From Saccharothrix violaceirubra (GTDB taxonomy: Bacteria > Actinomycetota > Actinomycetes > Mycobacteriales > Pseudonocardiaceae): a DNA stretch of 64,000 nucleotides. The notes below the pieces were generated by a model that worked only from the letters and a program-made list of their open reading frames with translations, searched no databases and was not told where the DNA came from. How positions within the stretch are numbered: the stretch's first letter is position 1; every line of letters starts with the position of its first letter. Location of the stretch: assembly GCF_014203755.1 (NCBI RefSeq), contig NZ_JACHJS010000001.1, forward strand, positions 5,890,001-5,954,000, written 5' to 3'. Below are positions 14,272 through 56,087 of the stretch, piece after piece. A program made the translations under genes and the position numbers.

Positions 14272-16227
<1,956 letters not shown>

Positions 16228-16232
16228 TCAGG

Positions 16233-18020: not shown

Positions 18021-18299
18021 TCCTGCCTCCTGCGCTGTGGTGGTGCTGGCGTCGCCGGAGGCGCGCCCCGGCTCATCGGATCGTAGACCGGGCGGTCGGG
18101 GGCGGCTCGGCCGGCCCGACCGCCGGATCATGCGAGGTAGCCCAGGTCACAACCGGTCCGGGGCACGCACGACCGCCGGTCACACCGTCACCGGGCGTCT
18201 CGACCGGGAATCGTCCGAACAGCCGTCGACCTGCGAGGGACATCCGCGCTGGTCCGACAACAGTGGACGATCACACGCCGGGATACCCCTACCTCGCGG

Positions 18300-19790
18300 T
18301 CACGCCTTGTCGACCAGGTCGCGGGACTTCACCACCGCGCCGACGTGGTGACGGAAATCGGCGACTTCGGGAATCGACTCGTGCCCGGCGCCCGCGTGGA
18401 CCAGGCCGCGCAAACCCTCCGTGAGCCGGCTGGACTTGATCGTGCTCGCGCCGGCCACCGCGTCGATTCCGACTGAAACCGCCTGCGACGGATCGCCCGC
18501 TTTCATGGCCACCAAAGCGAAATCGATCTGCGCCAAGGTGCGTGAGCGCGCGTAGGCTTGACCATAGCCGTCCATCGCGATGGACAGCCTGTCCTGCGCT
18601 TCCGCCACGAACCGACCATGCGAAGCAAGGCCGATGAATACTTGCCCGACGGTGGCGGCATGCTCCGCGACATCATAATACGAGATCGCCGGCGGGTTCG
18701 TCGGGAAGTCAGAATCGGCAAATTCCCGATCGGCGACATCGATCGCCGAGACCGCTTCCGCCGTCCGACCCAGACGCGCCAGGGCGTGAGCGCGAAGGGC
18801 CGACAACATCGCACGTTCCGTCGCCACCAGGCGATCGGATCGGACCAAGGCCAGTTCGACCCGGGTCAGGCTGTTCTCGTAATCACCCAGCGCGAACTCC
18901 TGCCGTGCCATATCGGACAGGACGGCGGCACGCAAATGCCAATCGCCGGCCTCCTCGGCGCAGGACAGCGCGAACCGGAAGGTTCGACGCGCGTCATCGT
19001 GGGCACAGGCGTCGAACGCCATGAAAGCAGTGGTGTGCGCGAACCGGCACAATGCCGAGAAAAGTTCGGTCTTGACCCGCGGACCCGCGGCGCAGTTCAG
19101 CAGTTCGGCGGAGTTCCGGAGTTGTGCCACAGCGGCGTGACGCGCGACGTTCCCGCCGTGCAGGTGCTGCCAGTCGGTGATGAATTTGTCGGAGTCGAGG
19201 ATCACTTGCACATGATCCATGCCGAGTACGCGCGGCACGGGGGCGGCCCCGATCGAATTCACCAATTCCGCCAGGGGAACGGCCGCTGTCGCGCCCATTA
19301 TCTTGAGCATGTCACGCCGGTCCACGCGGTCCCCTTCCCCGATCACCACCGGAGCTTCGAGGTTCGCACCCCGATGCACCGGGGATACCGACTCAAGGCT
19401 ACCACCAAGGAATGATGAAGTCATTGTTTCGCCGTTGATCACAGCAGGCGAAACAACGCCACCGATTACTTTTTCACGACGATAACGCTGCTCGACCTTG
19501 GCCCGTTCCCGTAGCCCGACCAGAACTCCGCCGGCATTCAAACCGACGTCGAGGGCACGCACCGGTTCAGCCGACGGAAGATCTCTCTGCGGTCGTTCGG
19601 CACGCGACACGTACTGCCGCGTGTAGCCGATGATCTTCGCAAGTTGCGGTTGACTGAGGCAGGCTTCCGCTCGCAGTCGCCTTATCTCCTCGGACAGCAG
19701 GACCGCCGCATCGACCAGCCGATCATCCGGCGGATCGATGCCATGCCCCTAGTTCGGCGGTTCCTGGCCGCCCTTGGCGACGCCCGTCAT
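18300..19790 (-). pseudogene. XRE-family regulator with TPR-like C-terminus, in-frame TAG at codon 14
   Basis: The reading frame from ATG 19790, which has AAGGGAG five bases upstream, reads MTGVAKGGQEPPN, then TAG (19749-19751). It then continues in the same frame for 482 more codons to TGA at 18300. Past the stop comes an intact helix-turn-helix (LSQPQLAKIIGYTRQYVSRAE) and a long helical, TPR-like sensor region as in streptomycete XRE regulators. There is no ATG, GTG or TTG between the TAG and a GTG at 19610, which would drop most of the helix-turn-helix. The gene is therefore probably inactive or makes only a domain without DNA binding, unless the TAG is read through or is a sequence error. 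Base composition is lower in GC than the neighbours. Confidence 0.75.
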
Positions 19791-19864
19791 CTCGACTCCC
19801 TTGATCACGAAGGCGGCACAACCGGCTGCCTGATGCTCCGCGGGTCAGCGGACGCAGCCTTTGC

Positions 19865-20117
19865 CTACCGGGCATCCTGCCATCGCACACAGGTGGGACG
19901 CGCCCCGATCGACCTCGATACCCACGTCCAATCCTTGCGCGTACGGATCGCCCGACCGGTGCACCTCCATCAGGATGGGCGCCGCCGGCGGAGACTCGGC
20001 GCGAACACGGTCGATCAAGGCATCCACTTCGTCCACTGTGGATACAGTGCCCGGGGTGTCGCCGTGCTCGTACAGGTAGTGCACGTCCAGGGAACCCACT
20101 TCGAGATCCCACCCCAC
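19865..20117 (-). pseudogene. Imm1-type immunity protein gene with internal deletion
   Basis: From GTG 20117 the frame reads the N-terminal part of an Imm1-like polymorphic-toxin immunity protein (STVDEVDALIDRVRAES, then DPYAQGLDVGIEVDRG). Right after DRG the original frame turns to unrelated sequence ending at 19845. In a shifted frame, however, the family's usual C-terminal end appears as GARPTCVRWQDAR, ending at TAG 19865-19867. The central 40 or so residues between these two pieces are missing. The simplest reading is an out-of-frame internal deletion. No toxin gene is seen beside it. The match to Imm1 rests on motif memory. Confidence 0.55.
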
Positions 20118-33711: not shown

Positions 33712-35025
33712 CTAATCGCGCCTGTGGTCGATGGTCCGCCAGCGCTCGCGCAGGGCCGTGACGTGCGCCTCCACCTCGTCGGCGACCGCGTCGCGGGTCC
33801 ACCGCTGCCGGCGGAAGGCGGCCTCGCCGACCAGCGCCGCCGCGCCGCCGACCAGGACCGCGGTGACCGGGGCGAACCGGGACGCGGTGACGACCCCCAC
33901 CGTCCACGCAACGCACACCGCCGTCCACACCGGGTGGTCGGCGAGCGCCCACACGACCCGGCGGCGACGGCTGTCCCTTCGCAACAGCCGGACGCCGAGC
34001 GTCAGGCCCAGCAACGCCTTGCGGCAGCGCAACCTCGACGTCAAGGGTAGGCGGCGGTCGTGGCCCTCGTGGCCGGCGAGGTGGCGTTCCAGTCGGGCCA
34101 GGTCCTGGCGCAGGGCGACCGGTGCGACCGGTGTCGAGAGCCGCCGGGGCCACAACCGCTCGCGTTCCTCGTGCCGGAGCCGGTCACGGCGCAGGGACAG
34201 GGTCATGTGGATCACCGCGAACAGGACGATGCCCGCCATGACGAGTACTCCCACCGGCTCCACCCCGTCGGCGAAGACCTCGGCCGCGCAGAGGCCGAGG
34301 AAGCCGAGCACGAACGGCACCCCGACGCGGGTGTAGTACTCGGTGGGCGTCATGGGTTGCAACAGCGATTCGGCCGCACGGATTCGCTTGCGCCCCAACA
34401 GGACCACGACCGACACCAGCGCCACGGCCAGGGAGACGAGCAGCAACGTGCCGACCAGCGTCGCGTCGACCGGCAGCAGCAGACCGCCCAGGCCCGCGAG
34501 GGCGCCGACAGCCGCGAGCCAGGCCCGCGCGTCGGGCGCCGAAGTGCCGGTGCGCTCGGCGTGCGCCTGGGCGAACCCGGTGTCGACCAGCAGGGTCAGT
34601 TCCTCGGCCAACGCGTCGGCGTCCGCACGCGGGTCCGACGAGCGGACCCGCCGCGCCTGGGCCAGCGCGAACTTGCGCAGCCCGCCCGACAACCTGCCCT
34701 CGTGCGGCAGCACCGCGTCGTCGACGAGCACCGGGATCACGAGCTTGCCCCGGGCCAGCGCGGTCTCCAACTCCCAGCGGACCCAGTCCTTGCCGGTCTT
34801 GGCGTCCAGGTCCGCGAGCCAGTCCTCGTGCACCAGGGCGAGGACGACCTGGGACCGGTCGAGCCCCCGGCGCAGGTCGTCGGGGTAGGCGGCACCGGCG
34901 TCGATGGATTCGCGGTCCAGGTAGACGTTGCCGACGCCGAAGATCTCCCGCAACCGCTCCCGCAGCACCAACGCCACCGCGGTGGTGGCGGGCGTGGTCC
35001 GGTAGTTGATGAAAATCCCGCCCAT
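33712..35025 (-). CDS. TIR-domain membrane protein
   Basis: A 437-residue protein. Residues 1-130 are a TIR domain: MGGIFINYRT start, YLDRESIDAGAAYPDDL, LVHEDWL and the conserved WE in DWVRWELETAL, whose Glu (E85) is the position of the NADase glutamate in bacterial TIR enzymes. At least four membrane helices follow, in pairs around residues 195-240, 265-305 and 370-410. ATG at 35025 has TACGGT 8 nt upstream and no Shine-Dalgarno sequence. It is the paralogue of the TIR protein encoded at 54122-55528. Immune or signalling function is inferred from the family; the ligand and partner are unknown. Confidence 0.8.
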   Translation of the reverse strand: MGGIFINYRTTPATTAVALVLRERLREIFGVGNVYLDRESIDAGAAYPDDLRRGLDRSQVVLALVHEDWLADLDAKTGKDWVRWELETALARGKLVIPVLVDDAVLPHEGRLSGGLRKFALAQARRVRSSDPRADADALAEELTLLVDTGFAQAHAERTGTSAPDARAWLAAVGALAGLGGLLLPVDATLVGTLLLVSLAVALVSVVVLLGRKRIRAAESLLQPMTPTEYYTRVGVPFVLGFLGLCAAEVFADGVEPVGVLVMAGIVLFAVIHMTLSLRRDRLRHEERERLWPRRLSTPVAPVALRQDLARLERHLAGHEGHDRRLPLTSRLRCRKALLGLTLGVRLLRRDSRRRRVVWALADHPVWTAVCVAWTVGVVTASRFAPVTAVLVGGAAALVGEAAFRRQRWTRDAVADEVEAHVTALRERWRTIDHRRD

Positions 35026-35052
35026 GCCGCCGGACCGTAGCGGAAGCAAACC

Positions 35053-35250
35053 CGCGAGTCGTGCACTCGGACACCGCGAGTCGTGCACTCGGACACCGCG
35101 AGTCGTGCGCTCAGACACCGCGAGTCGTGCACTCGGACACCGCGAGTCGTGCGCTCAGACACCGCGAGTCGTGCGCTCAGACACCGCGAGTCGTGCACTC
35201 GGACACCGCGAGTCGTGCACTCGGACACCGCGAGTCGTGCACTCAGACAC
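35053..35250 (+). repeat. 22-bp tandem repeat array, nine units
   Basis: Exactly nine head-to-tail units of 22 bp, each CGCGAGTCGTGC then a/g variants of ACTCGGACAC. The units differ only at two positions (A/G in CACTC versus CGCTC, and G/A in CGGAC versus CAGAC). Each unit holds a small dyad, CGAGT-CGTGC-ACTCG. A degenerate tenth unit leads into the terminator at 35265. There are no spacers, so it is not CRISPR. It lies between the terpene synthase end and the TIR gene promoter. Confidence 0.95.
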
Positions 35251-35264
35251 CCGGAACACACGTT

Positions 35265-42891: not shown

Positions 42892-42957
42892 AGCCCCGAA
42901 CGCATATTTCGCGGTGCCCGAACGCACAACTCGCGGTGCCTGAACGCATAACTCGCG
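42892..42957 (-). repeat. 22-bp tandem repeat, three units, inverted orientation
   Basis: Three units (42892-42913, 42914-42935, 42936-42957) that on the minus strand read CGCGAGT/CGCGAAA followed by TNTGCGTTC and GGCAC, the same family as at 1741 and 35053. They begin 23 bp after the glycerate kinase stop. Confidence 0.8.
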
Positions 42958-43226: not shown

Positions 43227-44318
43227 GTGAAGTCCACGCTCAGCATCGTCGCCCTGCTCTTACTCCTGGCACCGGCGCCCGCCAAAGCCGACGTGCCCAA
43301 TCCCGCGTGGCCCTCCCGCTGCCCCCTCAAACTCGGCCTCCTGATCGACCAGTCGTACTCGATGTCGTCGAGGTTCGTCGAAGTCCGCGAAGCCGCGTCC
43401 AACGTCATCGACGCCCTGCGCGACAAGAAGTCCGAGATCACGATCATCGGCTTCGGCGGCGTCGCGACCACGATCGACAGCGCCGTGGACGTCTCGGACG
43501 ACGACGACCGCCGCGCGCTCAAGGAGACCGTCAAGCGCATCGACACCGGCGACAGCGGCGAGGGCACCAACTGGGAGGCCGCGCTGACCGACATCGCCCC
43601 GCTGGACCTCGACGTGGCGGTGGTGATCACCGACGGCCAACCGAACACCGCCGCGGGCGGCGACACCACCGACCCGGTCGCCGCGGCGGTGGTGGCGGCG
43701 GACCGCCTCAAGGCCGACGGCACCCGCCTGGTCGGCATCGGCATCGACCTGCCCCCGGAGGGCGCCGTCAACCTGGCCGCGATCACCGGCCCGGTACCGG
43801 GCCAGGACTACTACGCCGACGACACGGTCACGCTCCTGCGCCGCCTCTACGACATCGTGGCCAACTCGTGCGGCGTCCCGATCGACGCCCTGCCCCGGCC
43901 GGAACCCGCGACGTTCCCCTGGCGCGAGGTGCTGCTCGGCGCGGGCGCCCTGCTGCTCCTGCTCGGCCTGGTCGCGTTCGGCCTGCACCGCAAGCGCCGC
44001 GCACCGGTCACGGTCACGCCGACCCGCCGCAAGACCAGGATCGAGACCCCGACGATCGAACACGGCACGGTGGCCGAACGACTCCGCACGCAGGCCGCCG
44101 AGGAACAGACACGACGCGACCAGGCAGCACGGGACCAGGCAGACGCGAAACAGGCACACGAACAACAACCGACACCCGACCAGACCCAGCGGGACCAGGT
44201 GGCGGAACAGCCCGGACACGAGGCCGTCCGTCAAGAAGACACCGGGCGCCCACAGCGACGCTCGATGTCGATCGACTTCCTGAACCGTGAACCACCGACG
44301 AAAAAGGACAACCCATGA
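43227..44318 (+). CDS. Exported, membrane-anchored von Willebrand factor A protein
   Basis: A 363-residue type I membrane protein. Signal peptide at residues 1-21 (ending PAKA), then an extracytoplasmic vWA domain with a complete MIDAS: DQSYS (D41, S43, S45), Thr in GEGTNWE and Asp in ITDGQPN. One membrane helix (about 233-255) and a 100-residue cytoplasmic tail rich in Gln, Arg and Glu follow. GTG at 43227 has GGAGA 6 nt upstream. It is first of a seven-gene coupled operon and its stop overlaps the Hsp70 ATG by 4 bp. It probably senses or binds a ligand outside and signals through the tail; this is inference. Confidence 0.85.
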   Translation: MKSTLSIVALLLLLAPAPAKADVPNPAWPSRCPLKLGLLIDQSYSMSSRFVEVREAASNVIDALRDKKSEITIIGFGGVATTIDSAVDVSDDDDRRALKETVKRIDTGDSGEGTNWEAALTDIAPLDLDVAVVITDGQPNTAAGGDTTDPVAAAVVAADRLKADGTRLVGIGIDLPPEGAVNLAAITGPVPGQDYYADDTVTLLRRLYDIVANSCGVPIDALPRPEPATFPWREVLLGAGALLLLLGLVAFGLHRKRRAPVTVTPTRRKTRIETPTIEHGTVAERLRTQAAEEQTRRDQAARDQADAKQAHEQQPTPDQTQRDQVAEQPGHEAVRQEDTGRPQRRSMSIDFLNREPPTKKDNP

Positions 44319-45910
44319 CCCGTCGCCCTGTTCTCGGCATCGACCTGGGAACGACCTACTCCTGCGTCGCGTCGCTGGACGAGAACCAGCGGGTGTCGGT
44401 CCTGCCCAACCAGGAGAACGAGCTGACCACCCCCTCGGTGGTCTTCTTCGAGGAGTCCGGCAACGTCACGGTCGGCAAGTTCGCCAAGAACGAGCTGAGG
44501 AGCGAGCCCGGCCGCGTCGTCTCGCTGATCAAGCGGCACATGGGCGAGGACGGCTACACCGTCGACATCGACGGCAAGCGGTTCTTCCCCCAGCAGGTCT
44601 CGGCGATCATCCTCAAGCAGGTCGTCGAGGACGCGTTGGGCGTGCTCGGCGTCGACCCGCCCGCCGACGGCCCCATGGCCGACGTGGTGATCACCGTGCC
44701 CGCGTACTTCGGTGCGGCCGAACGCCAGGCCACGCGCGACGCGGGCGAGATGGCCGGCCTCGAAGTCCTCAACATCATCAACGAGCCCACGGCGGCGGCC
44801 ATCGCCTACGGCCTGACCTCCGCCACCGCCACCGAGCGCAGCGTCCTCGTCTACGACCTGGGCGGCGGCACGTTCGACGTCACGATCATCAAGGTCTCGA
44901 AGGACGAGATCCGCGTCGTCGCCACCGGCGGCAACCACCAGCTCGGCGGCGCCGACTGGGACACCCGCGTGGTGGAGCTGATCTGCGAGAAGTTCACCGA
45001 GCAGCACGCCGGTTCGGACCCGCGCACGGACCTCGACGCGTCGGGCACGATCGAACTGCTCGCCGAGGAGGCGAAGAAGGCGCTGTCCCGGCGTGACGCC
45101 TACCCGACGACGGTCACCGCGAACGGCGAGCGCGCCAAGATCGAGCTGACCCGCGCCGAGTACGAGTCCGCGACCGCCGACCTGATCGGCAACACGCTGG
45201 ACTTCACGCGCGACGTGCTGGGCAAGGCCCGGGAGAAGGGCGTCGACCACATCGACGACCTGCTGCTGGTCGGCGGCATGTCGCACTCGCCCGCGGTGAA
45301 GGAGGCGCTGGTCCGCGAGTTCCCGGACCTGCCCACGCCGCAGCTCGCGGACCCGGACCAGATCGTGGCCAAGGGCGCGGCCCTGTTCGCGGCCAGTTCG
45401 GTGGCCGAGAAGGACGGGTCCGGGAGCGACGGGTCCGGCACCTCGTCCCCGCGCGGCCTGCCCGGCGGCACCGCGCTGCCCAAGATCGTCAACGTCACGT
45501 CCAAGGGTTACGGCATCGCCGTGGTCCGCGACCCGAAGAAGCCCGACGGCGACCTGGTCGTGGCGTGGCTGATCCACCCCAACGACGAGATCCCGGCCCG
45601 GCCCAGCGACGTGTTCCGGACCGTCTCGGACAACCAGACCGGGGTCGACGTCGCGGTGTACGAGTCCACGACGGACGTCCTGAGCGAGGAGCTGTACGAC
45701 AACCTGGAGCTGGTCAAGGGCACGCTGAAGGACATCCCCCGCGCGCCCGCCGGCCAGCCGTTCGACGTGTCGTTCAACCTGGAGGCGGACGGCATCCTGC
45801 ACGTCAAGGCGGTCGCGTCCAACGGCCGCGAGCTGAAGCTGGAGGCCAAGATCAGCGGCCTGGTGCCGGAGGAGGTCAAGCGGGCACCGCTGCCGGCGAT
45901 CCAGCGGTGA
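44315..45910 (+). CDS. Lidless Hsp70 (DnaK-like) protein
   Basis: A 531-residue Hsp70. The ATPase domain is complete: GIDLGTTYSC (residues 8-17), INEPTAAAIAYG, VYDLGGGTFDV, and LLVGGMSHSP. A beta substrate-binding-like domain follows (about 395-525, with FNLEADGILHVKA), but the 100-residue helical lid and the C-terminal tail of DnaK are missing. A Gly/Ser/Asp-rich linker (about 370-390) replaces the usual hydrophobic DLLLLDV linker. It cannot be the housekeeping DnaK and is probably a dedicated switch within this operon. Coupled by 4-bp overlaps to the genes on both sides; a grpE-like gene lies at the end of the cluster. Confidence 0.9.
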   Translation: MTRRPVLGIDLGTTYSCVASLDENQRVSVLPNQENELTTPSVVFFEESGNVTVGKFAKNELRSEPGRVVSLIKRHMGEDGYTVDIDGKRFFPQQVSAIILKQVVEDALGVLGVDPPADGPMADVVITVPAYFGAAERQATRDAGEMAGLEVLNIINEPTAAAIAYGLTSATATERSVLVYDLGGGTFDVTIIKVSKDEIRVVATGGNHQLGGADWDTRVVELICEKFTEQHAGSDPRTDLDASGTIELLAEEAKKALSRRDAYPTTVTANGERAKIELTRAEYESATADLIGNTLDFTRDVLGKAREKGVDHIDDLLLVGGMSHSPAVKEALVREFPDLPTPQLADPDQIVAKGAALFAASSVAEKDGSGSDGSGTSSPRGLPGGTALPKIVNVTSKGYGIAVVRDPKKPDGDLVVAWLIHPNDEIPARPSDVFRTVSDNQTGVDVAVYESTTDVLSEELYDNLELVKGTLKDIPRAPAGQPFDVSFNLEADGILHVKAVASNGRELKLEAKISGLVPEEVKRAPLPAIQR

Positions 45911-48435
45911 CCGGCCAGTTCGACACCGCCCGGTTCATCGACGAGGTCCTCAAACCGATCCAGGACGGGTGGCGCCCGGACGAGGACCTGTTCCGGGTGT
46001 ACCTGTTGCGCACCGACGTGACCGACGACCGGACGATCTCGGCCGCCCTGGAGGAGGTCGCCCGGCAGCTCACCAAGCAGCAGTACCGGATGTTCCGGCG
46101 GGCGACCGAGATCCTGCGCGGCCTCCAGAAGACCGGCGGCGAGGTGTTGCTGGACCCGGCCCGCCGGGAGAAGCACCGCAAGCAGGTCGAGGCCGCGCGC
46201 GGCCGACTGGCGAGCACGGTGAAGCTGCGGCTCAACGGCGCGCCCGCGCTGCCACCCGCCGAGGTGGCCGCGCAGGCGCGCACGCTCAAGGTGCCGCGCA
46301 GCGCGATCCTGGCCGCGTTGCGCGACGCGCGCGGCGACGTCCGCGAGCCCGCCGAGCTGCCGCCGACCGCCGAACCCCGCCAGTGGGCGGAGGCACGCGG
46401 GCATCTCACCCAGCTCCGGCAGTCCTCGCTGTGGGACTACGTGACCGACCTGGGCGGCGTGGACACGACCGTCGCGCACCTGTCCGCCCGGCGCGAGAAG
46501 CTGCGGGTGGCGCGCAACGCGGACAGCGCGGCGGAGACCACGCTGCTGCAGCTGATCAGGGGCTGGATCGAGAACGGCGGCCTGGCGCCCGTGCTGCGGT
46601 ACGAGCTGCTGACCGACCTGGCGGACCGGTCCGCGTACGGCTACGACGAGGCGCTGAGCGCGGCCAAGGCCGCGTCCGGACGGCTGCGGAAGGTCGGCGT
46701 CACCGCCGATCCGGCGGCGATCGCGTACGCGGTGTGGTGCGGTCGCGCGTTCACCGCCGCCGAGCCGACGCCGAGCTGGCAGGAGCCCTACCAGCAGGCC
46801 ATCGGCGAGCTGCGGCTGCGGGCCGCGCTCACCGTGTTGCGGCAGCAGCCGAACCTGCCGGAGACCTGGGTCGCCCAGCGCACGGAGCTGGAGGGCCGGC
46901 TCGCCGCGCTGGACGCCGAACTCGAACGCTGCGAGGCGTTGGAGCGCGCGGACGTCGAGGCGGCCGTCACCGGCTACCTCAAGGTGCGCCAGGAGCTGGT
47001 CGACGACCGGATCGACGCGGCGCTGGAGCGCTGCCGGCCCGCGCCGCCCGCGTCCGCCACCGCCACCATCCACAATGGACAGATCACGGTCGCGTGGCCG
47101 CCGAGCCCGGCCAGGGCGGGCCGGATCACCTACCGGGTGTCGCGCGCGGGCACCGTGCTCGACGAGGGCGGCGGCCGGGAGTACACCGACCGGGAGCCGC
47201 CGTCGGGCACGCCGCTGGTCTACGCCGTGCACGCGTTGCGCGACGGCACGCCGTCCGCCGAACCCGCGCGCACGGCACCGGTCGTGGTCCTCGGCGAGGT
47301 GCTCGACCTGGACGTGCGCGGCGGACCCGACGCGGTCACCGGCCGCTGGCGGCTGCCGCCGGGCGCGGCCGGCGCCGAGGTCACCCGGTCCGGCCGACCG
47401 GTCGCCGACGCGCACTCGACCACGTTCACCGATCCGGACCTCCCACCCGGCCGCACCGAGGACTACCTGGTCCGCGTCCGGTACCGGCTGCCGGACGGCA
47501 CGATCGCGCTCAGCACCGGCCTGCACCGCTCGGCGAGCCGCCAGGAGACGCCGGTCGCGGTGACCGACCTGTCCGCCCGGTTCGAGGACCGCGACCTGGT
47601 CGCGGAGTGGACGCCGCCGCCGCGCGGCGAGGTCGAGGTCCTCGAACTGCCCGACGGCCGCACGCCGCCGGAGCCCGACGTGGTCCCGGTCGACCGCGCC
47701 CGCCGGTACGGCACCGTGATCCCGGCGCGCGGCGCCTCCGGACGCGGCCGGTTGCGCGCCACGCTGTCGTCGGTGGGCCGCCGCCAGGTGCTGCTGCCGA
47801 TCACGGTGCTGGGCGAACTGGCCGCGATCGGCACGGCGTTCACCCTGGACGCCCGGCAGAGCCCGGTGTCCGGGCTGCGCGCCGACCGGCTCGGCACGGC
47901 CGTGCAGCTGACCTGGGAGTGGCCGCCCGGGTCGACGTCGGCCCGCGTGGTGTGGCGTCCGGGCGTGAAGCCCACCGGGCCCGAGGACCCGAAGGCGTCC
48001 GCCGTGGACCTGACCCGGGTGTCCTACGACGGTCGGGGGTTCTCCGTGACCGTGCCGGAGGGCGACCACTGGTTCGGCGTGTGCACGTCGGTGTCCACCG
48101 ACGACGTGCGCGCGTTCGGGCCGCTGTCGCTGACCCGCGAGAGCACGGTCGGCACGGTGTCGTACCAGGTCGTGCCCGGTCCCTGGTACGCGCGCAAGCG
48201 TCGGAAGCTGATCGTCGGGGGCACGGTCCCGGTCGTGCTCGTGGCCCGGTCCGGCGTGCGCCCGATGAACCCCTCCGACGGCGAGGTGCTCGTCCGCGCC
48301 GAGAGCGGCGGCAGCACGGAGTTCGAGGTGCCCGCCGGCCTGCGCCGCCCGGTGCACCTGCGCGCGTTCTCCCGGGACGACCGGGTCGTCCTGGTGCCCA
48401 CGCGTCCCGACCAGCTCATCGTGCGAGGAGCGTGA
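45907..48435 (+). CDS. Large protein with helical N-terminus and FN3-like repeats
   Basis: An 842-residue protein without signal peptide or membrane helix. Residues 1-370 are helical and charged, possibly coiled-coil, and include an invariant-looking basic stretch (RREKHRKQVEAARGRLAS). From about 375 to 840 come five or six beta-sandwich-like segments, each with the Trp/Tyr spacing of fibronectin type III domains (for example ITVAWPPSP...ITYRVSRAG, and VQLTWEWPPGSTSARVVWR). The family was not recognised. It lies between the Hsp70 and the first GTPase with overlapping starts, so it is likely a scaffold or adaptor of the same system. Confidence 0.7.
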   Translation: MTGQFDTARFIDEVLKPIQDGWRPDEDLFRVYLLRTDVTDDRTISAALEEVARQLTKQQYRMFRRATEILRGLQKTGGEVLLDPARREKHRKQVEAARGRLASTVKLRLNGAPALPPAEVAAQARTLKVPRSAILAALRDARGDVREPAELPPTAEPRQWAEARGHLTQLRQSSLWDYVTDLGGVDTTVAHLSARREKLRVARNADSAAETTLLQLIRGWIENGGLAPVLRYELLTDLADRSAYGYDEALSAAKAASGRLRKVGVTADPAAIAYAVWCGRAFTAAEPTPSWQEPYQQAIGELRLRAALTVLRQQPNLPETWVAQRTELEGRLAALDAELERCEALERADVEAAVTGYLKVRQELVDDRIDAALERCRPAPPASATATIHNGQITVAWPPSPARAGRITYRVSRAGTVLDEGGGREYTDREPPSGTPLVYAVHALRDGTPSAEPARTAPVVVLGEVLDLDVRGGPDAVTGRWRLPPGAAGAEVTRSGRPVADAHSTTFTDPDLPPGRTEDYLVRVRYRLPDGTIALSTGLHRSASRQETPVAVTDLSARFEDRDLVAEWTPPPRGEVEVLELPDGRTPPEPDVVPVDRARRYGTVIPARGASGRGRLRATLSSVGRRQVLLPITVLGELAAIGTAFTLDARQSPVSGLRADRLGTAVQLTWEWPPGSTSARVVWRPGVKPTGPEDPKASAVDLTRVSYDGRGFSVTVPEGDHWFGVCTSVSTDDVRAFGPLSLTRESTVGTVSYQVVPGPWYARKRRKLIVGGTVPVVLVARSGVRPMNPSDGEVLVRAESGGSTEFEVPAGLRRPVHLRAFSRDDRVVLVPTRPDQLIVRGA

Positions 48436-49544
48436 TGGCCACCATCAACTGTCCGTACTGCTGGACGCCGCACCGCCGGGGCGACCTGCACCTGCGGTGC
48501 GGCGAGCGCTGCGGCGCGGACCGGGGCACGACGTTCCCGGAACGGCAGGCCAAGAAGGGCCGCTGCCCGCACGGCAACCTGCCCGCCACCCGCCGGGTGT
48601 GCCCGGACTGCGGCAAGGACCTGCTGCGTGAGTACGTCGACAGCGGCGGGCGCAACATCGCGGTGATCGGCTCGTCGGACTCGGGCAAGAGCACGTGGGT
48701 CGGCGTGCTGGTGCACGAGTTCCAGCGCGGCCAGGTGCACCAGCGGTTCGACGGCATGTCGCTGGACCTGCTCGGCGAGTCCTCGCGCGACCGCTACCGC
48801 GACCACTTCGCCGTGCCGCTGTTCGAGCAGGGCCGCCCGGTCGACAGCACCCGGTCGGCACTGGTCGTCACGCCCGAGCCGCTGATCTTCAGCCTGCGCT
48901 TCCGACAGGCCCGGCGGTTCGGCGGCACCGGCGTCGCGCCCGTCGTGACCGTCTTCTACGACACCGCGGGCGAGGACGTGGCCCGCGCGCAGCGGATGGA
49001 CGAGCTGATCAGCTACCTGGACGCGGCCGAGGGTGTGATCCTGCTGCTCGACCCGCTCCAGATGCCGCGCGTGCGCGAACTCGTCGGCACCAACCACGAG
49101 AAGACCAAGTACACCGAGCAGCTCCACGTGGTGAACCGGCTCGGCGAACTGCTGCGGGAACGCCGCAAGGGCTCGGCGGGCAAGAAGCTCAAGACCCCGC
49201 TGGCGATCGCGTTGACCAAGGTCGACCTGCTGCGCGAGATGTTCGGCCCGGAGTCGCCGCTGCGCCGCCCGTCCGGGCACGACGGCGTGTACGACGAGGC
49301 CGACGGGCTCGACGTGCACGAGGAGGTCCGCGGCTGGCTGGACCAGTGGTACGACCCCGCGTTCGACCGCACGATCGCCAACACGTTCCAGCACTACCGG
49401 TACTTCGGCCTGAGCGCGCTGGGCGCGCCGCCGGTCAGCGGCACCGAGCTGTCCCGCTCCGGAGTGCACCCCTACCGCCTGGAGGACCCGATGCTGTGGC
49501 TGCTCGCCAGGTTCGGGGCGATCAAGATGAAGGGCAAGCGATGA
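48435..49544 (+). CDS. Zinc-ribbon P-loop GTPase
   Basis: A 369-residue cytoplasmic protein. Residues 1-62 hold two CxxC-type zinc ribbons (CPYC, RCGERC, CPHG, CPDC). A GTPase-like domain follows with P-loop GSSDSGKST (79-87), switch motif YDTAGE (175-180) and specificity motif LTKVD (260-264). The TAG motif and TKxD make GTP the probable ligand. It resembles the double-GTPase (DO-GTPase) families predicted in bacterial conflict systems, a match made from memory of the motifs. ATG shares one base with the upstream stop and its own stop overlaps the GAP1-like gene. Confidence 0.8.
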   Translation: MATINCPYCWTPHRRGDLHLRCGERCGADRGTTFPERQAKKGRCPHGNLPATRRVCPDCGKDLLREYVDSGGRNIAVIGSSDSGKSTWVGVLVHEFQRGQVHQRFDGMSLDLLGESSRDRYRDHFAVPLFEQGRPVDSTRSALVVTPEPLIFSLRFRQARRFGGTGVAPVVTVFYDTAGEDVARAQRMDELISYLDAAEGVILLLDPLQMPRVRELVGTNHEKTKYTEQLHVVNRLGELLRERRKGSAGKKLKTPLAIALTKVDLLREMFGPESPLRRPSGHDGVYDEADGLDVHEEVRGWLDQWYDPAFDRTIANTFQHYRYFGLSALGAPPVSGTELSRSGVHPYRLEDPMLWLLARFGAIKMKGKR

Positions 49545-51814
49545 CGGTCCGCCAACTGCATTACACGTCCTGCGAGGACGGTCTGGAAGGTATCCAGGGA
49601 TTCCAGGTCAGCGCGATGACGCCGGGCGTGCCCAAGCCGTTGTCGGAACTGGCCGTGCGGGCGAGCGTCTACGAGGCCGGGCCGAGCTTCGTGGCCCGGC
49701 TGCGCGACGGCGACCTCGACGAGTTCCCGGTCGCGTTCGGCTACGTGCCGCAGGGCCGGTCGGGCGTGCTGTTCCAGAGCCGGTACGCGGGCGCGGACTT
49801 CACCGGCCGCCTGGGCAACTACTTCGCGCACGCCCTGCTGGTCGACGACGTGGCGGCGGAACTCGGCGACGTGCTGCCGATCGACCTGTGGCGTTCCCCG
49901 GCGTGGGTGCACGGCCGCCTGGACGGGACGTCGCTGCCGGAACTGACCGGCCTGCCCGCCGGCACGGCCGTGACCCCGGACCGCGTGCGCGCGCTCGTCA
50001 CGGCCGGCGGCACCGGCAACCTCGAACGCGTCCTCGGTGCGGTGCAACGACTTCTCGCCGCCGGACGTGGCCGGCTCGTGCTCGTGGTGCGCGACGACGA
50101 GACGGCCGCGCGGTGGCTGGCGGCGGCCTGCCGGTCGCTGCCGCGCGAGCTGGGCCTGCGGATCTCGTTCGTCACCTACACCTCGCGGCCCGAGGAGGCG
50201 CCGGTCCTGGTCTGCGGCACGACGCCGGACGTGCGGCTGCCCGCGTACGGCGACTTCACGACGGTCTCCCTGCTCGAACCGGCACCGCGCGACCCCGACG
50301 GCACCCGCTACGCCTCGGCGTTGGCCCAGCTCTGGGAGCGCGACCAGGTCGACACCGCGCTCGCGCTGGCCGCGCAGGCGAGTCCCGCGTTGACCGCGCC
50401 CGAGCTGGACGCGTTCGCCGTGCTGCTGGAACTCGCGCTCGACCTGGCCGCCGCCGCACCGCCGGACGAGTCCACGCTGCTCACCGCGTTGCGGCTGGGC
50501 GTGGACCGGATGCCCCGCGGGCTGCCCGCGGCGGCCTGGCAGCGGGTCGCCGACCAGGTGCTCGACGCGGGCGGGCCCCAGGACGTCGCCGCGTGGGCGG
50601 AACTGCTGCGGGCCGCGCACGGCAACGGCGAACCCGTGCCGTCGACCCTGTACGGCACGTACTTCGTGGCCTCGCTCACCGCACCGCAGCGGCACTGGCA
50701 GCCCACCCTGGCCCAGGCCGACCTCACGGACGTCGCCGAGAACGTGGTGCTGCCCGCGCTGCTCGACGGCCGCTCCCCCGCGTTGGTCGAACGGCTCGTC
50801 GACCACCGCGACCTGGTCCGGTTCACCGCCGACGCGCTCGACCGGCGCCTGGCCGACCAGCGGGAGACCCGGCACCTGGCCACCACGCTCAAGCCCGAGG
50901 TCGTCCGGCTGCTGGTCGCCAACAGCCGGTCGGGTCGCGTCCGGCTGCTCGCCGACCTGGTGCTGGCGCGCAGCGGCGAACTCGACCCGGTCAAGGTGAT
51001 GGCCGAGGCGACCCGGTTCGACTCCGTGGAGTGGCAGCACCTGGGGCCGGTGCTGTGGCCGCAGGACCCGTCCACCGAGGAGTCGGTGCGGCTGCTGCGG
51101 GACGTGCCCACGCGCGTGCTGGTCGAGAGCCGGCTCGGCCAGCGGATCGTGGCGCGGGCGTTGGAACACTCGGCGCGGCCGGACCTCAAGCCCGAGGAGG
51201 GCCGGCTGATCGAGGAGGTGCTGCGCTCGCCCGTCGCCGCCGACCTGGGCGAACGCGACCAGGCCGGACTCAACGCCGCCCGCCGGATCGCCCACTTCGC
51301 CACCGCGAAACCCGGTCGCGGCGCGGCGCGCGAAGTGCTGACCGCGTTGGACGACCTGTCCGGTCTGACGCCCGAGCAGTCCGACCGGCTGCGGACCGCG
51401 CTCGCCGGGTACGTGCTGCGCGCCGACGCGGGACCGCACCTGGAACTGCTGGGCGACGTGCTCGCGCTGCACGCGCGGCCGTTCCTGCCCGCGTACCGCA
51501 ACGCCGTGCGCGAAGAGCTGGCCAAGGCGCCGTACCAGAAGGTCGCCGAGGCGATCGTGGTGTGGTGGGGGCTGGAGCAGGAGCACGTCCGGCGCACGCT
51601 CGTCGACGAGACGTTGCCGCTGGCGTTGCGCCGACGTCGGCGCCGCTACCTGGACAAGGTCGGCGGCCAGCTCCAGGTGACGGCCAAGCGGCTCGGGGTC
51701 GACCCGCCCCGGCCGAGCTGGCCCGGCTGGTGGCAGAACTGGCGGGCGCGCAAGGAGAAGCGCGGCTTCTTCGGCTTCGCCTTCGACCTGTTGCGCGGCA
51801 AGAAGGAGAAGTAG
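49541..51814 (+). CDS. GAP1-like GTPase-associated protein
   Basis: A 757-residue protein whose N-terminus (LHYTSCEDGLEGIQGFQVSA, then MTPGVP) matches the predicted GTPase-associated protein 1 (GAP1) N-terminal domain found beside double-GTPases. The rest is helical with many leucine/arginine repeats and ends in a basic region (RKEKRGFFGF). No enzymatic motif is evident. It starts inside the stop of the first GTPase (ATGA) and is followed after 2 bp by the membrane GTPase, so all three are made together. A regulatory or effector-coupling role is inferred from that context. Confidence 0.72.
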   Translation: MTVRQLHYTSCEDGLEGIQGFQVSAMTPGVPKPLSELAVRASVYEAGPSFVARLRDGDLDEFPVAFGYVPQGRSGVLFQSRYAGADFTGRLGNYFAHALLVDDVAAELGDVLPIDLWRSPAWVHGRLDGTSLPELTGLPAGTAVTPDRVRALVTAGGTGNLERVLGAVQRLLAAGRGRLVLVVRDDETAARWLAAACRSLPRELGLRISFVTYTSRPEEAPVLVCGTTPDVRLPAYGDFTTVSLLEPAPRDPDGTRYASALAQLWERDQVDTALALAAQASPALTAPELDAFAVLLELALDLAAAAPPDESTLLTALRLGVDRMPRGLPAAAWQRVADQVLDAGGPQDVAAWAELLRAAHGNGEPVPSTLYGTYFVASLTAPQRHWQPTLAQADLTDVAENVVLPALLDGRSPALVERLVDHRDLVRFTADALDRRLADQRETRHLATTLKPEVVRLLVANSRSGRVRLLADLVLARSGELDPVKVMAEATRFDSVEWQHLGPVLWPQDPSTEESVRLLRDVPTRVLVESRLGQRIVARALEHSARPDLKPEEGRLIEEVLRSPVAADLGERDQAGLNAARRIAHFATAKPGRGAAREVLTALDDLSGLTPEQSDRLRTALAGYVLRADAGPHLELLGDVLALHARPFLPAYRNAVREELAKAPYQKVAEAIVVWWGLEQEHVRRTLVDETLPLALRRRRRRYLDKVGGQLQVTAKRLGVDPPRPSWPGWWQNWRARKEKRGFFGFAFDLLRGKKEK

Positions 51815-51816
51815 TC

Positions 51817-53418
51817 GTGCACCCCATCGTCTTCCTGTTCTTACTGGCGCTGCTGTGCTTCGTGGGCCCCTACGCGCTCAGCGCCATCCTCCTGGCGGGC
51901 GGCGCGACCGCCGTCGTCATCGGCGTGGTCGAGTACGGCACGGCCGTGTTCGCCGGGTTCACCCCGTACGGGGCGATCAAGCACCTGAAGATCACGCCGC
52001 CGGAGGAGAGCGACTCCGGCCCGGACCCCGCGTACCGCAGCTACTACGCCGGCCCCGTGCTGCTGGACTACCAGCAGGTGCTCGGCCACACGTTCACGCG
52101 GGTGTGGGCACGCGTCGTGGCGGGCAAACCCGACGAGTACGGCAACGTGTCCCGGTCCCAGGTCGACCGCGTGTGGCGGTGGTCCAAGACCACCGCGACG
52201 CCGAAGATGCTGGCGTGGCCCGCCGCCGCCGCCGCGACCGTCGGGCTCGTGCTCGGCGTGTGCACGGCGATCGCGTTCGTCACCGTCACGTCGCTGATCT
52301 TCCTGGCGTTCCTGATCGTCCTCGTCGTCGGCGCGCTGATCACGGCCGGCGTGTCGCGCGTGCTGGAACTGGGCCTGCTGTTCCTGCGCGGCATCACCAT
52401 CGAGTGCCCGACGTGCCACGACAAGGTGACCCGGCCGATCTACCGCTGCCCGGAGTGCGGCGCGGCGCACCGCAAACTGGTGCCGGGCCGGACCGGGGTG
52501 CTGCACCGGACGTGCCGCTGCCAGGAACGGCTGCCCACGCTGCTGGCGTTGGGCAAGGCGAACCTGCGCGCCCAGTGCGCCCAAGGCCACCCGTTGCCGC
52601 TCAAGGGACTCCAGGCACCGACCGCGCACATCCCGGTGATCGCCGGACCGCAGGCGGGCAAGTCGGTGTTCATGCACAGCGCGGTGTCCCGGCTGATGCA
52701 GCGCGGCGGCGGGTTCGAGTTCGCCGACGAGCGGGCCAAGGACGAGTTCGAGACCAACGTGCAGCTCAAGGTGCACCTGGACCCCTCGTCGGCGCGCAAG
52801 ACCGTGATCGCCCGGCCGCGCGCGTACAACGTGTACGTCGGCGCGCAGGGCAGCCGGTCGCGCCGGTTGCTGTACCTGTACGACGCGGCGGGCGAGCTGC
52901 TGGTCAACGTGGACGGGCTCGCCGACTCGCAGTTCCTCGCCCACACCAAGGGGGTCGTGTTCATCGTCGACCCGTTCTCCATGCGCCAGGTGCGCTCGGG
53001 CACGGACCGGTCGACGCTGGGCCGGGTCAAGGCGTCCAACGAGGCGCCGGGCGAGGTGCTGGGCCGGTTCGTCGAGGCGTTGCGGGAACGCGGGGTGCGC
53101 AAACGCGGCAACCGCATCGACCTGCCGGTGGCCGTGGTGCTGACCAAGACCGACGGCCTGCGCGGGCCGACCGACGCGGGCCACCCGTACCGCGCCATGG
53201 GCAGCCGGTCGCGCGAGGCACGGGACACGGCCGTGCGCACGTGGTTGGAGGAGGTCGGGCAGGGCGACCTGACGTCCTCCCTGGACAACAACTTCACGAC
53301 GGTGTCGTACTTCGCGGTGAGCTACGAGGACGCGGTCACGGTCGCCGAGCACGAGTCGGTCGTGAACGACGACCCGGCCGTGCCGCTGCTGTGGCTGCTC
53401 GACCGGAAGGCGGTGTGA
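51817..53418 (+). CDS. Membrane-anchored zinc-ribbon P-loop GTPase
   Basis: A 533-residue protein. Two N-terminal membrane helices (residues 1-40) and a helical pair at about 140-190 are followed by a zinc ribbon (CPTC...CPECG, about 197-214) and further Cys/His. A GTPase-like domain follows with P-loop GPQAGKS (277-283), a YDAAGE switch and LTKTD. It is built like the soluble GTPase upstream with added membrane anchors, so the operon has one soluble and one membrane GTPase. GTG at 51817 has AAGGAGA 7 nt upstream. Its stop shares a base with the next ATG. Confidence 0.8.
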   Translation: MHPIVFLFLLALLCFVGPYALSAILLAGGATAVVIGVVEYGTAVFAGFTPYGAIKHLKITPPEESDSGPDPAYRSYYAGPVLLDYQQVLGHTFTRVWARVVAGKPDEYGNVSRSQVDRVWRWSKTTATPKMLAWPAAAAATVGLVLGVCTAIAFVTVTSLIFLAFLIVLVVGALITAGVSRVLELGLLFLRGITIECPTCHDKVTRPIYRCPECGAAHRKLVPGRTGVLHRTCRCQERLPTLLALGKANLRAQCAQGHPLPLKGLQAPTAHIPVIAGPQAGKSVFMHSAVSRLMQRGGGFEFADERAKDEFETNVQLKVHLDPSSARKTVIARPRAYNVYVGAQGSRSRRLLYLYDAAGELLVNVDGLADSQFLAHTKGVVFIVDPFSMRQVRSGTDRSTLGRVKASNEAPGEVLGRFVEALRERGVRKRGNRIDLPVAVVLTKTDGLRGPTDAGHPYRAMGSRSREARDTAVRTWLEEVGQGDLTSSLDNNFTTVSYFAVSYEDAVTVAEHESVVNDDPAVPLLWLLDRKAV

Positions 53419-53555
53419 TGACCGACGAGATCCCCAGGTCGATCGCGACCGGGCGGCGGGTGGCGCTGGTGCTGCTCGTCGTCGCCATGGTCGTCACGGT
53501 CCTGCTGGCGGTGGTGCTGATCGCCGCCGACGTCACGAAGCCGGTGGAGGTGTGA
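53418..53555 (+). CDS. 45-residue single-pass membrane peptide
   Basis: A small gene whose ATG overlaps the stop of the membrane GTPase (TGATG). The product has an N-terminal charged head, one long hydrophobic helix (about residues 15-37) and a short tail. It ends the operon, and its last 23 bp overlap the convergent grpE-like gene. Tight coupling argues that it is translated. It may be a small membrane subunit of the GTPase complex. No homologue recognised. Confidence 0.6.
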   Translation: MTDEIPRSIATGRRVALVLLVVAMVVTVLLAVVLIAADVTKPVEV

Positions 53556-54018
53556 ACTTGCGGACGAGGACCTCGGCGAACCGGACGACGCGGGCGTCCA
53601 CCCGGTACCCGGGCTTGCGCACGGCCGCGACCAGGCCGTCGAGCGCGGCGTCGTCGGTCGGCGTGGTGCCCACGGCACGCTGCTCGTGCCGGTCGAACGC
53701 GGTGCCCTCGGCGGCGGTGAACTCCTCGACGCCTTGGCGGTCGAGCAGCAGCGTCACGTCCTCCACGACCTCCTCGCACAGGCGGGCCTGCGCCGGGTCC
53801 TTGTCGGCGAGCGCCGTGCCGCGGGCCCGCCAGTCGTCGGCGAGCTTGACCAGCTCGCGCAGGGCCGGTTGCAGGACGCGTTGCGCCTCGGCGTTGCGCA
53901 GGCGTTCGTTCTCCGCGTGCAGCCGGTCCATGACGCCGTTGAGGAACCGGTTCTGCTCGTGCAGTCCGGCGAGTTCGTCCTTGATTTCGCCGAGTGCCTT
54001 CCCGATGATGTCGTCCAC
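53533..54018 (-). CDS. GrpE-like nucleotide-exchange factor
   Basis: A 161-residue GrpE-type protein with a long N-terminal coiled coil (LAGLHEQNRFLNGVMDRLHA...) and the C-terminal beta domain, a size similar to a short GrpE. It is probably the exchange factor for the lidless Hsp70, though it lies convergent to that operon rather than in it. Start GTG 54018 is chosen because TATTCT on the minus strand (54025-54030) ends 6 nt upstream, a leaderless promoter; GTG at 54039 would put the start before the -10 box. It is divergent from the second TIR gene over 103 bp. Confidence 0.8.
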   Translation of the reverse strand: MDDIIGKALGEIKDELAGLHEQNRFLNGVMDRLHAENERLRNAEAQRVLQPALRELVKLADDWRARGTALADKDPAQARLCEEVVEDVTLLLDRQGVEEFTAAEGTAFDRHEQRAVGTTPTDDAALDGLVAAVRKPGYRVDARVVRFAEVLVRKFTPPPAS

Positions 54019-54030
54019 AAATCGAGAATA
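54019..54030 (-). promoter_or_regulatory. Leaderless -10 box of the grpE-like gene
   Basis: TATTCT followed by CGATTT and the GTG start. It is the strongest leaderless -10 match in the window. Confidence 0.55.
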
Positions 54031-54121
54031 GGCCGGCACCCGGATCGGTACAAGAATTTTCTCCAGGGAGTCGACATTCGGTCGACCCCGATTCCGGCAT
54101 TCATTGCGAGGGGAGCGGGAA

Positions 54122-55528
54122 ATGCCCGGCGCATTCGTGAACTACCGCAGCGGACCGCACGCCGAGGCGGTCGCCGCGATCGCGGAGTCGTTGCGCCGGC
54201 ATTTCGGCGCCGACCGGGTGTTCGTGGACCACCAGATGCGCAAGGGCAGCCGGTACCCCGACGAGCTGCGTGCCGCGCTGCGGGACGCGGAGGTCGTGGT
54301 CGCGGTCGTGCACCAGGACTGGGTCGCCCGGTTCGGCAACGAGGTCGACTGGGTCCTGTGGGAGCTGAGAGAGGCCCTGGACCTGGGCATACCCGTCGTC
54401 CCGGTGCTGCTGGGCGACACGCCGCCGCCGACCAGCGCGGAACTCCCGGCGGAGATCGGGGAGTTCGCCCACCGCCAGGCGAGCCGGTTGCGCGCCGTGT
54501 CGCTCACCGAGGACATGGCGTCGTTGCTGCACGAACTGGAAAAGCACATCACCCAGCCGATCGCCGTGCGGGAACGACCGGAACCGAAACGGGTGGCGTT
54601 CTGGCCGCGCGTCCTGGGGTGGACGGTGGGAACGGCCGCCTATCCGGCGCTCATCGCCGTGTTGCTGGGCGCGGAGGCGATCAATTTCGCCACGGCCGCG
54701 TTGTCCTCGACCTTCATCCTGGCGGTCTCCCTGCTGGCGCACGTGGCCCAACTGCTGACCGTCCGCCAGAACACGAGACTGGAACGCCGACTCGGCGTGC
54801 TGCCGGTGCGCGCCTATGTGCGCAAGATCTGGTTCTACCCGCTCGTGGCGATGGTGGTCCTCCTGGCGATGATGGCCGACAACCTCCCGCTCACCGGCGT
54901 GTGGTGGTTCGCCGTCGTGGGCCTGATCGCCCTGGGCCTGTGGTTCTACGGGCAGCGCCTGTTCGACGCCCGCGACGAGAAGGAGAAGGAGTGGCCGCCG
55001 ACCCCGTCGCTGGAGCCGTACCTGTACCGGCGCGCGGCGGCGCACCTGCACGAGCGGCTGACCACGTGGCCGGAGTGGCGGTGGCCGCGGTCGCGCCTGC
55101 ACCAGGGCGAGGCCGTGGCGGTCTACCTCGACCTCACCGAGACGAAACTGGCCCTGGAGTCCCGGACGAGGATCCGGCTGGGCGCGTGGCTGCGCCAGGA
55201 GCGGTGCGGCTTCTCCCGCGCCCACCTGGGGTGGGGGGCGGGCATCGTGGCGATGTACGTCGTGGCCGCACTGGTCCTGCGGCCGGAGCAGCTCGTCCGT
55301 GACGACGGGACCCTGCCGACGCGGGCGCAACTCGTGGTGCTGACCCTGTTCTTCGGCGTGGCGGCACTGGTCGCCGCGGCCCTCACCTTCGTGACGCTCC
55401 TCGTCGAGGTCCGGATCGGCCGCAAGAGCGACCGGCTGCTCGTGGCGGAACTGGAGGAGTGGCAGTCCCTCCTCGGCCCCTTGGTCTTCGTGCGCCCGGA
55501 GGACACCCGCGCGTTCAGGTCGACATGA
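54122..55528 (+). CDS. TIR-domain membrane protein
   Basis: A 468-residue protein. Residues 1-140 are a TIR domain (MPGAFVNYRS start, VVHQDWV, and VDWVLWELREAL with E81 at the NADase Glu position). Two pairs of membrane helices follow (about 160-215 and 245-290) and a third pair near 375-430. This is the same plan as the TIR protein encoded at 33712-35025, so they are paralogues. ATG at 54122 has GGGGAG 6 nt upstream. It is divergent from the grpE-like gene and next to a Nudix hydrolase. It is probably an NAD-consuming or signalling effector tied to the GTPase operon, which is inference. Confidence 0.8.
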   Translation: MPGAFVNYRSGPHAEAVAAIAESLRRHFGADRVFVDHQMRKGSRYPDELRAALRDAEVVVAVVHQDWVARFGNEVDWVLWELREALDLGIPVVPVLLGDTPPPTSAELPAEIGEFAHRQASRLRAVSLTEDMASLLHELEKHITQPIAVRERPEPKRVAFWPRVLGWTVGTAAYPALIAVLLGAEAINFATAALSSTFILAVSLLAHVAQLLTVRQNTRLERRLGVLPVRAYVRKIWFYPLVAMVVLLAMMADNLPLTGVWWFAVVGLIALGLWFYGQRLFDARDEKEKEWPPTPSLEPYLYRRAAAHLHERLTTWPEWRWPRSRLHQGEAVAVYLDLTETKLALESRTRIRLGAWLRQERCGFSRAHLGWGAGIVAMYVVAALVLRPEQLVRDDGTLPTRAQLVVLTLFFGVAALVAAALTFVTLLVEVRIGRKSDRLLVAELEEWQSLLGPLVFVRPEDTRAFRST

Positions 55529-55592: not shown

Positions 55593-56087
55593 ATGACCGC
55601 CCTGACCGCAGACGTCGTGCTGTTCACCAGACGACGCGGAGTCCTGTCCGTGCTCACGATCACCCGGGGCAAGCCGCCGTACGAGGGCGCCCTGGCCCTG
55701 CCCGGCGGCTTCGTGGAACAGGACGAGCGCCCCTTGGAGGCCGCGGTCCGGGAACTGGCCGAGGAGACCGGCCTGCACCTGCCGAAGTCCCGCCTGCGCC
55801 GCGTCGGCAGCTACGACACCCCCGGCCGCGACCCCCGGGGTGCGGTGGCAAGCACCGCGTTCCACGCCTACGTCATCGGCGCACCCGACGTCCGCGGCGG
55901 AAGCGACGCCGCCACCGCCACCTGGACCCCGTTGGCGACCCTGCTGTCCCCCACGACCCCCACGGCCTTCGACCACCGCCGGATCGTGCGGGACGCCGTT
56001 CACCGTCGGTTCGGCCGAGCGAAGGCGCTCCCGTGCCGCGCGATCCGAGGCCACCGACCCGCGCAGGGCGGCCTCCGCCCCCGCTGA
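55593..56087 (+). CDS. Nudix hydrolase
   Basis: A 164-residue Nudix protein. The Nudix box is complete: GGFVEQDERPLEAAVRELAE followed by ETGL, with the metal-binding glutamates in place. The VLTITRGKPPYEG start and the FDHRRIV end resemble ADP-ribose or NAD-pathway Nudix proteins, but the winged-helix part of NrtR regulators is missing. It follows the TIR gene by 64 bp. ADP-ribose is a TIR NADase product, so cleavage of that product is a reasonable guess. It is followed by a long non-coding gap. Confidence 0.85.
   Translation: MTALTADVVLFTRRRGVLSVLTITRGKPPYEGALALPGGFVEQDERPLEAAVRELAEETGLHLPKSRLRRVGSYDTPGRDPRGAVASTAFHAYVIGAPDVRGGSDAATATWTPLATLLSPTTPTAFDHRRIVRDAVHRRFGRAKALPCRAIRGHRPAQGGLRPR

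Follow-up and report, generated by a model that had tools for sequence, protein, structure and literature searches.

GAP1-N2 GTPase-centric systems have been predicted from genomes, and consist of fibronectin type III (FNIII, here FN3) proteins and zinc-ribbon GTPases, one of each pair lying in the membrane; among the three themes described for them, the HSP70/GrpE theme accounts for about 14% of the systems (Kaur, Burroughs, Iyer and Aravind, eLife 2020, PMC7159879). According to the available text of that study, the FNIII protein of this theme is typically, but not obligatorily, fused to DnaJ or TPR, vWA genes go with the tubulin and kinase themes, and mentions of TIR concern GAP1-N1 and MoxR systems and are absent from the GAP1-N2 section. 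No experimental study of GAP1/DO-GTPase systems was found in a literature search which took in few subscription journals. Here we describe an operon of Saccharothrix violaceirubra, located in a stretch of 64,000 nucleotides of contig NZ_JACHJS010000001.1 (positions 5,890,001 to 5,954,000; “the window”), which almost certainly is a GAP1-N2 system of the HSP70/GrpE theme. Its kind is already known, and the window represents a receptor-headed sub-lineage of it, called type B below.

The most far-reaching reading, to which we would give a probability of just under 0.4, is that the GAP1 protein of this operon may be a GTPase-activating protein (GAP) of the longin-DENN type, with Arg90 as its putative arginine finger, placed between a vWA receptor whose tail would be bound by Hsp70 and a presumed TIR NADase. 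The structural model of GAP1 and the conservation of Arg90 are in keeping with a GAP of this type.

The window shares with the described systems the GAP1-N2, M and C domains, two zinc-ribbon DO-GTPases (one of them in the membrane), an FNIII protein, HSP70 and GrpE. It differs from the available description in that the operon is headed by an extracellular vWA receptor, grpE is located at the far end and on the opposite strand, the FN3 protein has no DnaJ match, a helix with one transmembrane (TM) segment is encoded by a separate gene of 45 codons, and a TIR-TM gene adjoins the operon. The original prediction, made from the letters alone, had considered an extracellular vWA input together with a chaperone to be unusual. 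The chaperone half of this claim is not supported, as HSP70 with GrpE is a known theme, while vWA with HSP70 is indeed the less expected combination, as far as the available text of the same study (PMC7159879) goes.

A compact operon and its type B relatives

Seven same-strand genes span positions 43227-53555 with successive spacings of -4, -4, -1, -4, +2 and -1 bp, so that the tight run claimed originally is borne out by the gene calls. The grpE-like gene said to face the operon end is there as well: it converges on the peptide gene and overlaps it by 23 bp (a GTG at 54018 is an alternative start). Pfam matches agree with the identities proposed for the parts and place both GTPases and all three GAP1 domains in the GAP1/DO-GTPase families: VWA (2.5e-9), HSP70 (2.2e-104), GAP1-N2, GAP1-M and GAP1-C (2.5e-33, 7.2e-21 and 1.1e-9, all over the cut-off), DO-GTPase2 in GTPase-1 and GTPase-2 (1e-8 and 7.1e-11, both over the cut-off) and GrpE (3.8e-12, with GrpE chain 1dkg_A matched at E=0.0012).

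For the FN3 protein there was no Pfam match at E 0.1, but its label holds, as the AlphaFold model matches fibronectin type III structures. In this model (predicted local distance difference test score, pLDDT, 84.7, lowest in the first ~60 residues) residues 1-375 are helical and residues ~376-750 form fibronectin type III-like sandwiches, as judged with Foldseek/VIA. No DnaJ or TPR match was found in it with Pfam, and hhalign against the five J domains of the genome gave a probability of 0.6%. A 1290-aa relative of the FN3 protein, P0030, has on its C-terminal side a DO-GTPase2 match of 20.7 bits, the curated cut-off being 27.

The search for GAP1-N2 covered 297 genomes of the family, 50 of which have it, and 396 genomes taken from the phylum, where it is present in 8; the genome of the window counts in both sets. 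For each of the 52 further occurrences in the family we retrieved 15-20 kb of surrounding sequence and labelled the open reading frames (ORFs) with profiles built from the proteins of the window. Together with the window this makes 53 loci, and HSP70-like and GrpE-like ORFs each occur at 41 of them. In the common layout the order is grpE-Hsp70-FN3-GTPase-GAP1-GTPase, and in type B the vWA gene comes first and the peptide gene with the converging grpE last. This second layout is present at the window and at L061, L065, L068, L069, L070, L071 and L075, eight of the 53 loci in all. A ninth, L090 of Solihabitans fulvus, was added when named genomes were scanned, which gave nine loci; the same scan gives as further type B hosts Saccharothrix deserti, Lentzea aerocolonigenes, Goodfellowiella coeruleoviolacea, Nocardia sp. 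NRRL S-836 and Actinophytocola oryzae. The type B layout was absent from all of the seven loci that we took from the phylum outside this family. The full order vWA-Hsp70-FN3-GTPase-GAP1-GTPase-peptide-grpE is kept at eight of the nine type B loci, and the original prediction, which the lack of a conserved neighbourhood in relatives would have refuted, is supported on this point. At the exception, L068 (10108-15325), the vWA gene is missing and the first GTPase is called in two pieces; this copy is possibly decaying. In a tree of GAP1 proteins the nine type B sequences fall into one supported group of 11, together with two orphan GAP1s. Orphan GAP1 genes with no GTPase in the locus are found at L066 (7900-10158) and L067 (7882-10140), 56% identical to that of the window, and their surroundings resemble, by eye, a biosynthetic cluster of the aryl-polyene type.

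GAP1, its GTPases and a small membrane peptide

The GAP1 model has a pLDDT of 94.5, and Foldseek/VIA matches suggest that its N-terminal ~320 residues may be longin-DENN-like; a C-terminal part of helical repeats follows. Provided that this longin-like reading is right, Arg90 is located in the beta4-beta5 loop, between the strands 74-85 and 91-101 assigned by DSSP. The residue is kept in 51 of 51 GAP1s linked to GTPases. In GAP1s without a GTPase the entire loop G84..R90xGN is lost, and not Arg90 alone.

A serious, if less probable, alternative is that GAP1 is a guanine nucleotide exchange factor (GEF) of the DENN type or a plain scaffold, in which Arg90 would shape the loop or contact the GTPase without catalysis. 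Two of the top three structural matches of GAP1 are DENND1 structures, which are Rab GEF domains, and loss of the whole loop could be explained by binding alone. However, the position of Arg90 is the one named for DENN GAPs and not for GEFs, which speaks against this alternative.

GAP1 would then have its closest counterparts in the DENN GAPs of the Avl9 family (PMC12803157) and in the longin GAPs FLCN-FNIP and SMCR8-C9orf72 (PMC8213707, PMC8336837), with which, as far as the accessible parts of these papers describe them, it shares the predicted longin-DENN-like topology and the beta4-beta5 arginine. It differs from them in being bacterial, in having DO-GTPases as partners in place of Arf, Rab or Rag, in its long helical repeat and in a GAP activity that is predicted; no sequence relationship to them was detected. 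TagF of type VI secretion (PDB 9t0n), which also counts among the closest known systems, stands in a genomic setting different from that of GAP1 and is not known to have a GTPase partner. MglB is a small roadblock dimer, and GAP1, unlike MglB, is a large single chain. The MglA-MglB pair resembles the present case as a bacterial GTPase with its GAP, and its roadblock domain is held, in the available text of PMC8336837, to be related to longin/uDENN. If GAP1 is a GAP of the DENN type, a GTPase-regulator fold known mainly from membrane traffic and the control of mTORC1 in eukaryotes would have a bacterial, immune-like relative. As a counterpart of the Avl9, FLCN and SMCR8 regulators, such a bacterial protein would bear on the origin of the fold.

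Kaur et al. (2020) describe these GTPases as having one or two zinc ribbons at the N-terminus and a conserved Walker B glutamate, and both GTPases of the window contain the cysteine pairs and the glutamate (in DTAGE and DAAGE, respectively). GTPase-1 has the motifs GSSDSGKS, DTAGE and TKVD. In GTPase-2 we found DAAGE and TKTD, and by eye a P-loop, AGPQAGKS, which falls outside our stricter scripted pattern. According to the accessible part of the same study (PMC7159879), one of the paired GTPases should have four TM helices at its N-terminus and a further TM at its C-terminus. The hydrophobic stretches of GTPase-2 lie near residues 4-48 and 130-190, ahead of the zinc ribbons and the GTPase domain, and the hydropathy peaks fit about four N-terminal TMs; the C-terminal TM is absent and a separate one-TM gene is present instead.

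This 45-aa peptide is no local oddity: it accompanies the membrane GTPase widely and has a counterpart at all nine type B loci. Defining such a gene as a TM-containing ORF of 30-75 codons whose start lies between -30 and +60 relative to the preceding stop, we found one behind 37 of 43 membrane-GTPase genes and behind none of 301 other labelled ORFs; of the six misses, L048 and L050 have a 41-aa ORF at -4 that falls just below the hydropathy limit. In other families, locus L105, whose neighbouring genes look kinase-, PP2C- and vWA-like by eye, has a 48-aa one-TM gene after its membrane GTPase, and at L108 a C-terminal TM with a similar GRRV sequence is part of the membrane-GTPase-like chain itself. 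We read the peptide as a C-terminal helix that has become separate from the membrane GTPase; the evidence is moderate, as L108 is divergent and its protein has no recognisable P-loop. In that protein (L108 11621-13894) the C-terminal TM is followed by a long, probably extracellular, part.

Receptor, chaperone and TIR protein

The receptor consists of a signal peptide, an extracellular vWA domain, one TM (residues ~235-253) and a cytoplasmic tail, as indicated by Pfam and hydropathy. Seven orthologues, the window included, have in common the vWA core, a single TM and a cytoplasmic linker that varies, and the MIDAS motif DxSxS is seen in the five of these seven that were called with a full N-terminus. 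Six of the seven close with a tail peptide of consensus RRSMSLDFL followed by a PPTTKDNP-like end (RRSMSIDFL in the window, HRSMSLDFL in two orthologues), and L071 retains the latter end only. A back-translated pattern of the tail matched once in each of six of the eight genomes searched, always in the vWA gene, and it occurs once in the genome of the window; over 297 genomes it gave 12 matches, six of them in vWA genes, while a reversed control hit eight genomes. Substrate domains of Hsp70 are expected to bind hydrophobic peptides with basic flanks, and the tail peptide may be a sequence of this type. The Hsp70 encoded next aligns with DnaK across the nucleotide-binding and beta substrate domains and ends where the lid would start.

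Just past grpE, and divergent from it, lies a TIR gene which the original prediction overlooked (TIR_2, 1.7e-10). The closest solved relatives of the TIR alignment are SARM1 TIR domains (E 4.4e-11), and Glu81 is aligned with the catalytic glutamate, which we take to be E642 of SARM1. Here the TIR domain is joined to bacterial membrane segments, and the ARM and SAM parts that SARM1 has were not seen in the TIR protein of the window. A TIR-TM gene lies beyond grpE at six of the nine type B loci (window, L061, L065, L070, L071 and L075), with no TIR next to grpE at L068, L069 and L090. In the eight genomes that carry the first eight type B loci, TIR_2 matches number 116 over about 76 Mb, which makes a chance neighbour unlikely; the loci, however, share descent. 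One TIR-TM family occupies the same place in divergent hosts, at 33-44% identity to the protein of the window. A protein-database search with candidates capped at 7999 listed at least eight proteins, the window's own among them, and at least six near-full-length relatives besides it; the matches listed are no census, as copies known at other type B loci are missing from them. The two named relatives come from Lentzea aerocolonigenes and Saccharothrix sp. 6-C, organisms in which type B FN3 and GAP1 relatives occur too. The TIR protein is probably part of the system and likely its effector, one that would cleave NAD.

TIR genes occur at other layouts as well. At six such loci a TIR of different architecture is found upstream of grpE (one of the two checked with Pfam carries RES), and at L032 a TIR gene directly follows the membrane GTPase. 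L037 (1531-2610) encodes a RES-TIR fusion upstream of grpE; RES acts on NAD, so that the fusion joins two NAD-related domains. At L055, also of the other layout, a TIR gene lies on the upstream side, and on the downstream side are a second Hsp70 gene, a small vWA gene and a gene for a CHAT protease. NUDIX genes are found near the type B loci L061 (by profile label) and L065 (by Pfam), as in the window.

We infer from these parts a course of signalling which, in outline, is tentative and somewhat short of an even chance, and in which the GAP step may err in detail. The data show which parts there are, their order and conservation, the conserved tail, the companion peptide, the TIR association and the Arg90 pattern; each step from one part to the next, the ligand, the GAP and NADase activities and a role in defence are proposals. 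The extracellular vWA domain would bind a ligand through its metal site, and the lidless Hsp70, controlled by GrpE, would hold or let go of the conserved tail peptide, with the FN3 protein as a scaffold of the complex. At rest, GAP1 would keep both zinc-ribbon GTPases in the GDP state by means of Arg90, the small TM peptide being a partner of the membrane GTPase. A disturbance of the receptor or scaffold might then lift this hold, a GTP-bound pair could form at the membrane, and the membrane TIR protein would be triggered to cleave NAD+ and so stop the infected or damaged hyphal compartment. The order proposed originally, from ligand through Hsp70 and GTPase to effector, is plausible. This locus supplies GAP1/DO-GTPase systems with a receptor, a likely effector, a small membrane subunit that had been overlooked and an enzymatic hypothesis for GAP1.

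It is also conceivable, if unlikely, that the operon is a housekeeping or developmental relay reporting the status of the cell wall or envelope to the cytoplasm, and has no part in defence. An extracellular vWA domain combined with a membrane GTPase would suit such a role, there is no PADLOC match, and cell-wall-binding domains are described in relatives in the available text of PMC7159879. The patchy presence of GAP1-N2 in the family and phylum argues against it, as do the TIR genes, found beside grpE at most type B loci and present at seven other loci of the 53.

We consider it rather improbable that Hsp70 and GrpE serve only as a dedicated assembly chaperone for the FN3-GTPase complex, with no part in signalling. 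The Hsp70 gene adjoins the FN3 gene in both layouts, and the FN3 protein is large and divergent. However, when residues 331-430 of the Hsp70-like genes at the 53 loci were scanned (70 genes as called, 67 with a length of 450 aa or more), none had a DVLLLD-type linker, which two DnaK genes of the window's genome do show. The Hsp70 of the window keeps the nucleotide-binding and beta substrate domains but has neither linker nor helical lid, so that classical folding allostery is doubtful. Equally improbable is that the TIR gene is incidental and that the membrane GTPase with its small TM partner, as a pore or assembly, is the output: TIR genes are common in type B genomes, three loci have none beside grpE, and the converging grpE stands between operon and TIR gene, but the recurrence of one TIR-TM family at the same place in divergent hosts, and the type B relatives in the organisms of both named database matches, speak against it.

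Coordinates and minor observations

Table 1. Features of the operon and its surroundings (window positions, except for the last row, which gives positions in locus L055).
Feature	Position	Strand	Basis
vWA receptor gene	43227..44318	+	Pfam VWA, hydropathy, alignment of 7 orthologues
DNA match of tail peptide, vWA receptor	44262..44281	+	alignment and back-translated pattern
Lidless Hsp70 gene	44315..45910	+	Pfam, DnaK alignment, linker scan
FN3 scaffold gene (proposed role)	45907..48435	+	AlphaFold model, Foldseek/VIA fibronectin matches
GTPase-1, soluble DO-GTPase2 with N-terminal zinc-ribbon cysteines	48435..49544	+	Pfam, P-loop, DTAGE, TKVD
GAP1 (N2, M, C domains)	49541..51814	+	Pfam, structure model, Foldseek/VIA
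GAP1 Arg90 codon, candidate arginine finger	49808..49810	+	conservation in 51/51; loop position by DSSP
GTPase-2, membrane DO-GTPase2	51817..53418	+	Pfam, hydropathy, motifs
45-aa one-TM peptide gene	53418..53555	+	kept in 9/9 type B loci
GrpE-like nucleotide exchange factor gene	53533..54039	-	Pfam, match to 1dkg_A
TIR with C-terminal membrane segments, likely effector	54122..55528	+	Pfam TIR_2, SARM1 likeness, 6/9 type B loci
TIR Glu81 codon, aligned with SARM1 catalytic Glu	54362..54364	+	alignments
NUDIX hydrolase gene adjoining TIR gene, possible accessory	55593..56087	+	Pfam
L055 genes: TIR, second Hsp70, small vWA, CHAT protease	1482-2297, 13903-15435, 15432-16046, 16039-19898		profile labels/Pfam

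A second TIR protein is encoded in the window at 33712-35037 on the minus strand; it is of similar length to the one beside grpE and 27% identical to it. On the 5' side of its gene lies a 22-bp tandem repeat of 9.1 copies (35052-35251), and 2.9 diverged copies of the same 22-bp period are found upstream of the vWA gene, at 42895-42957.

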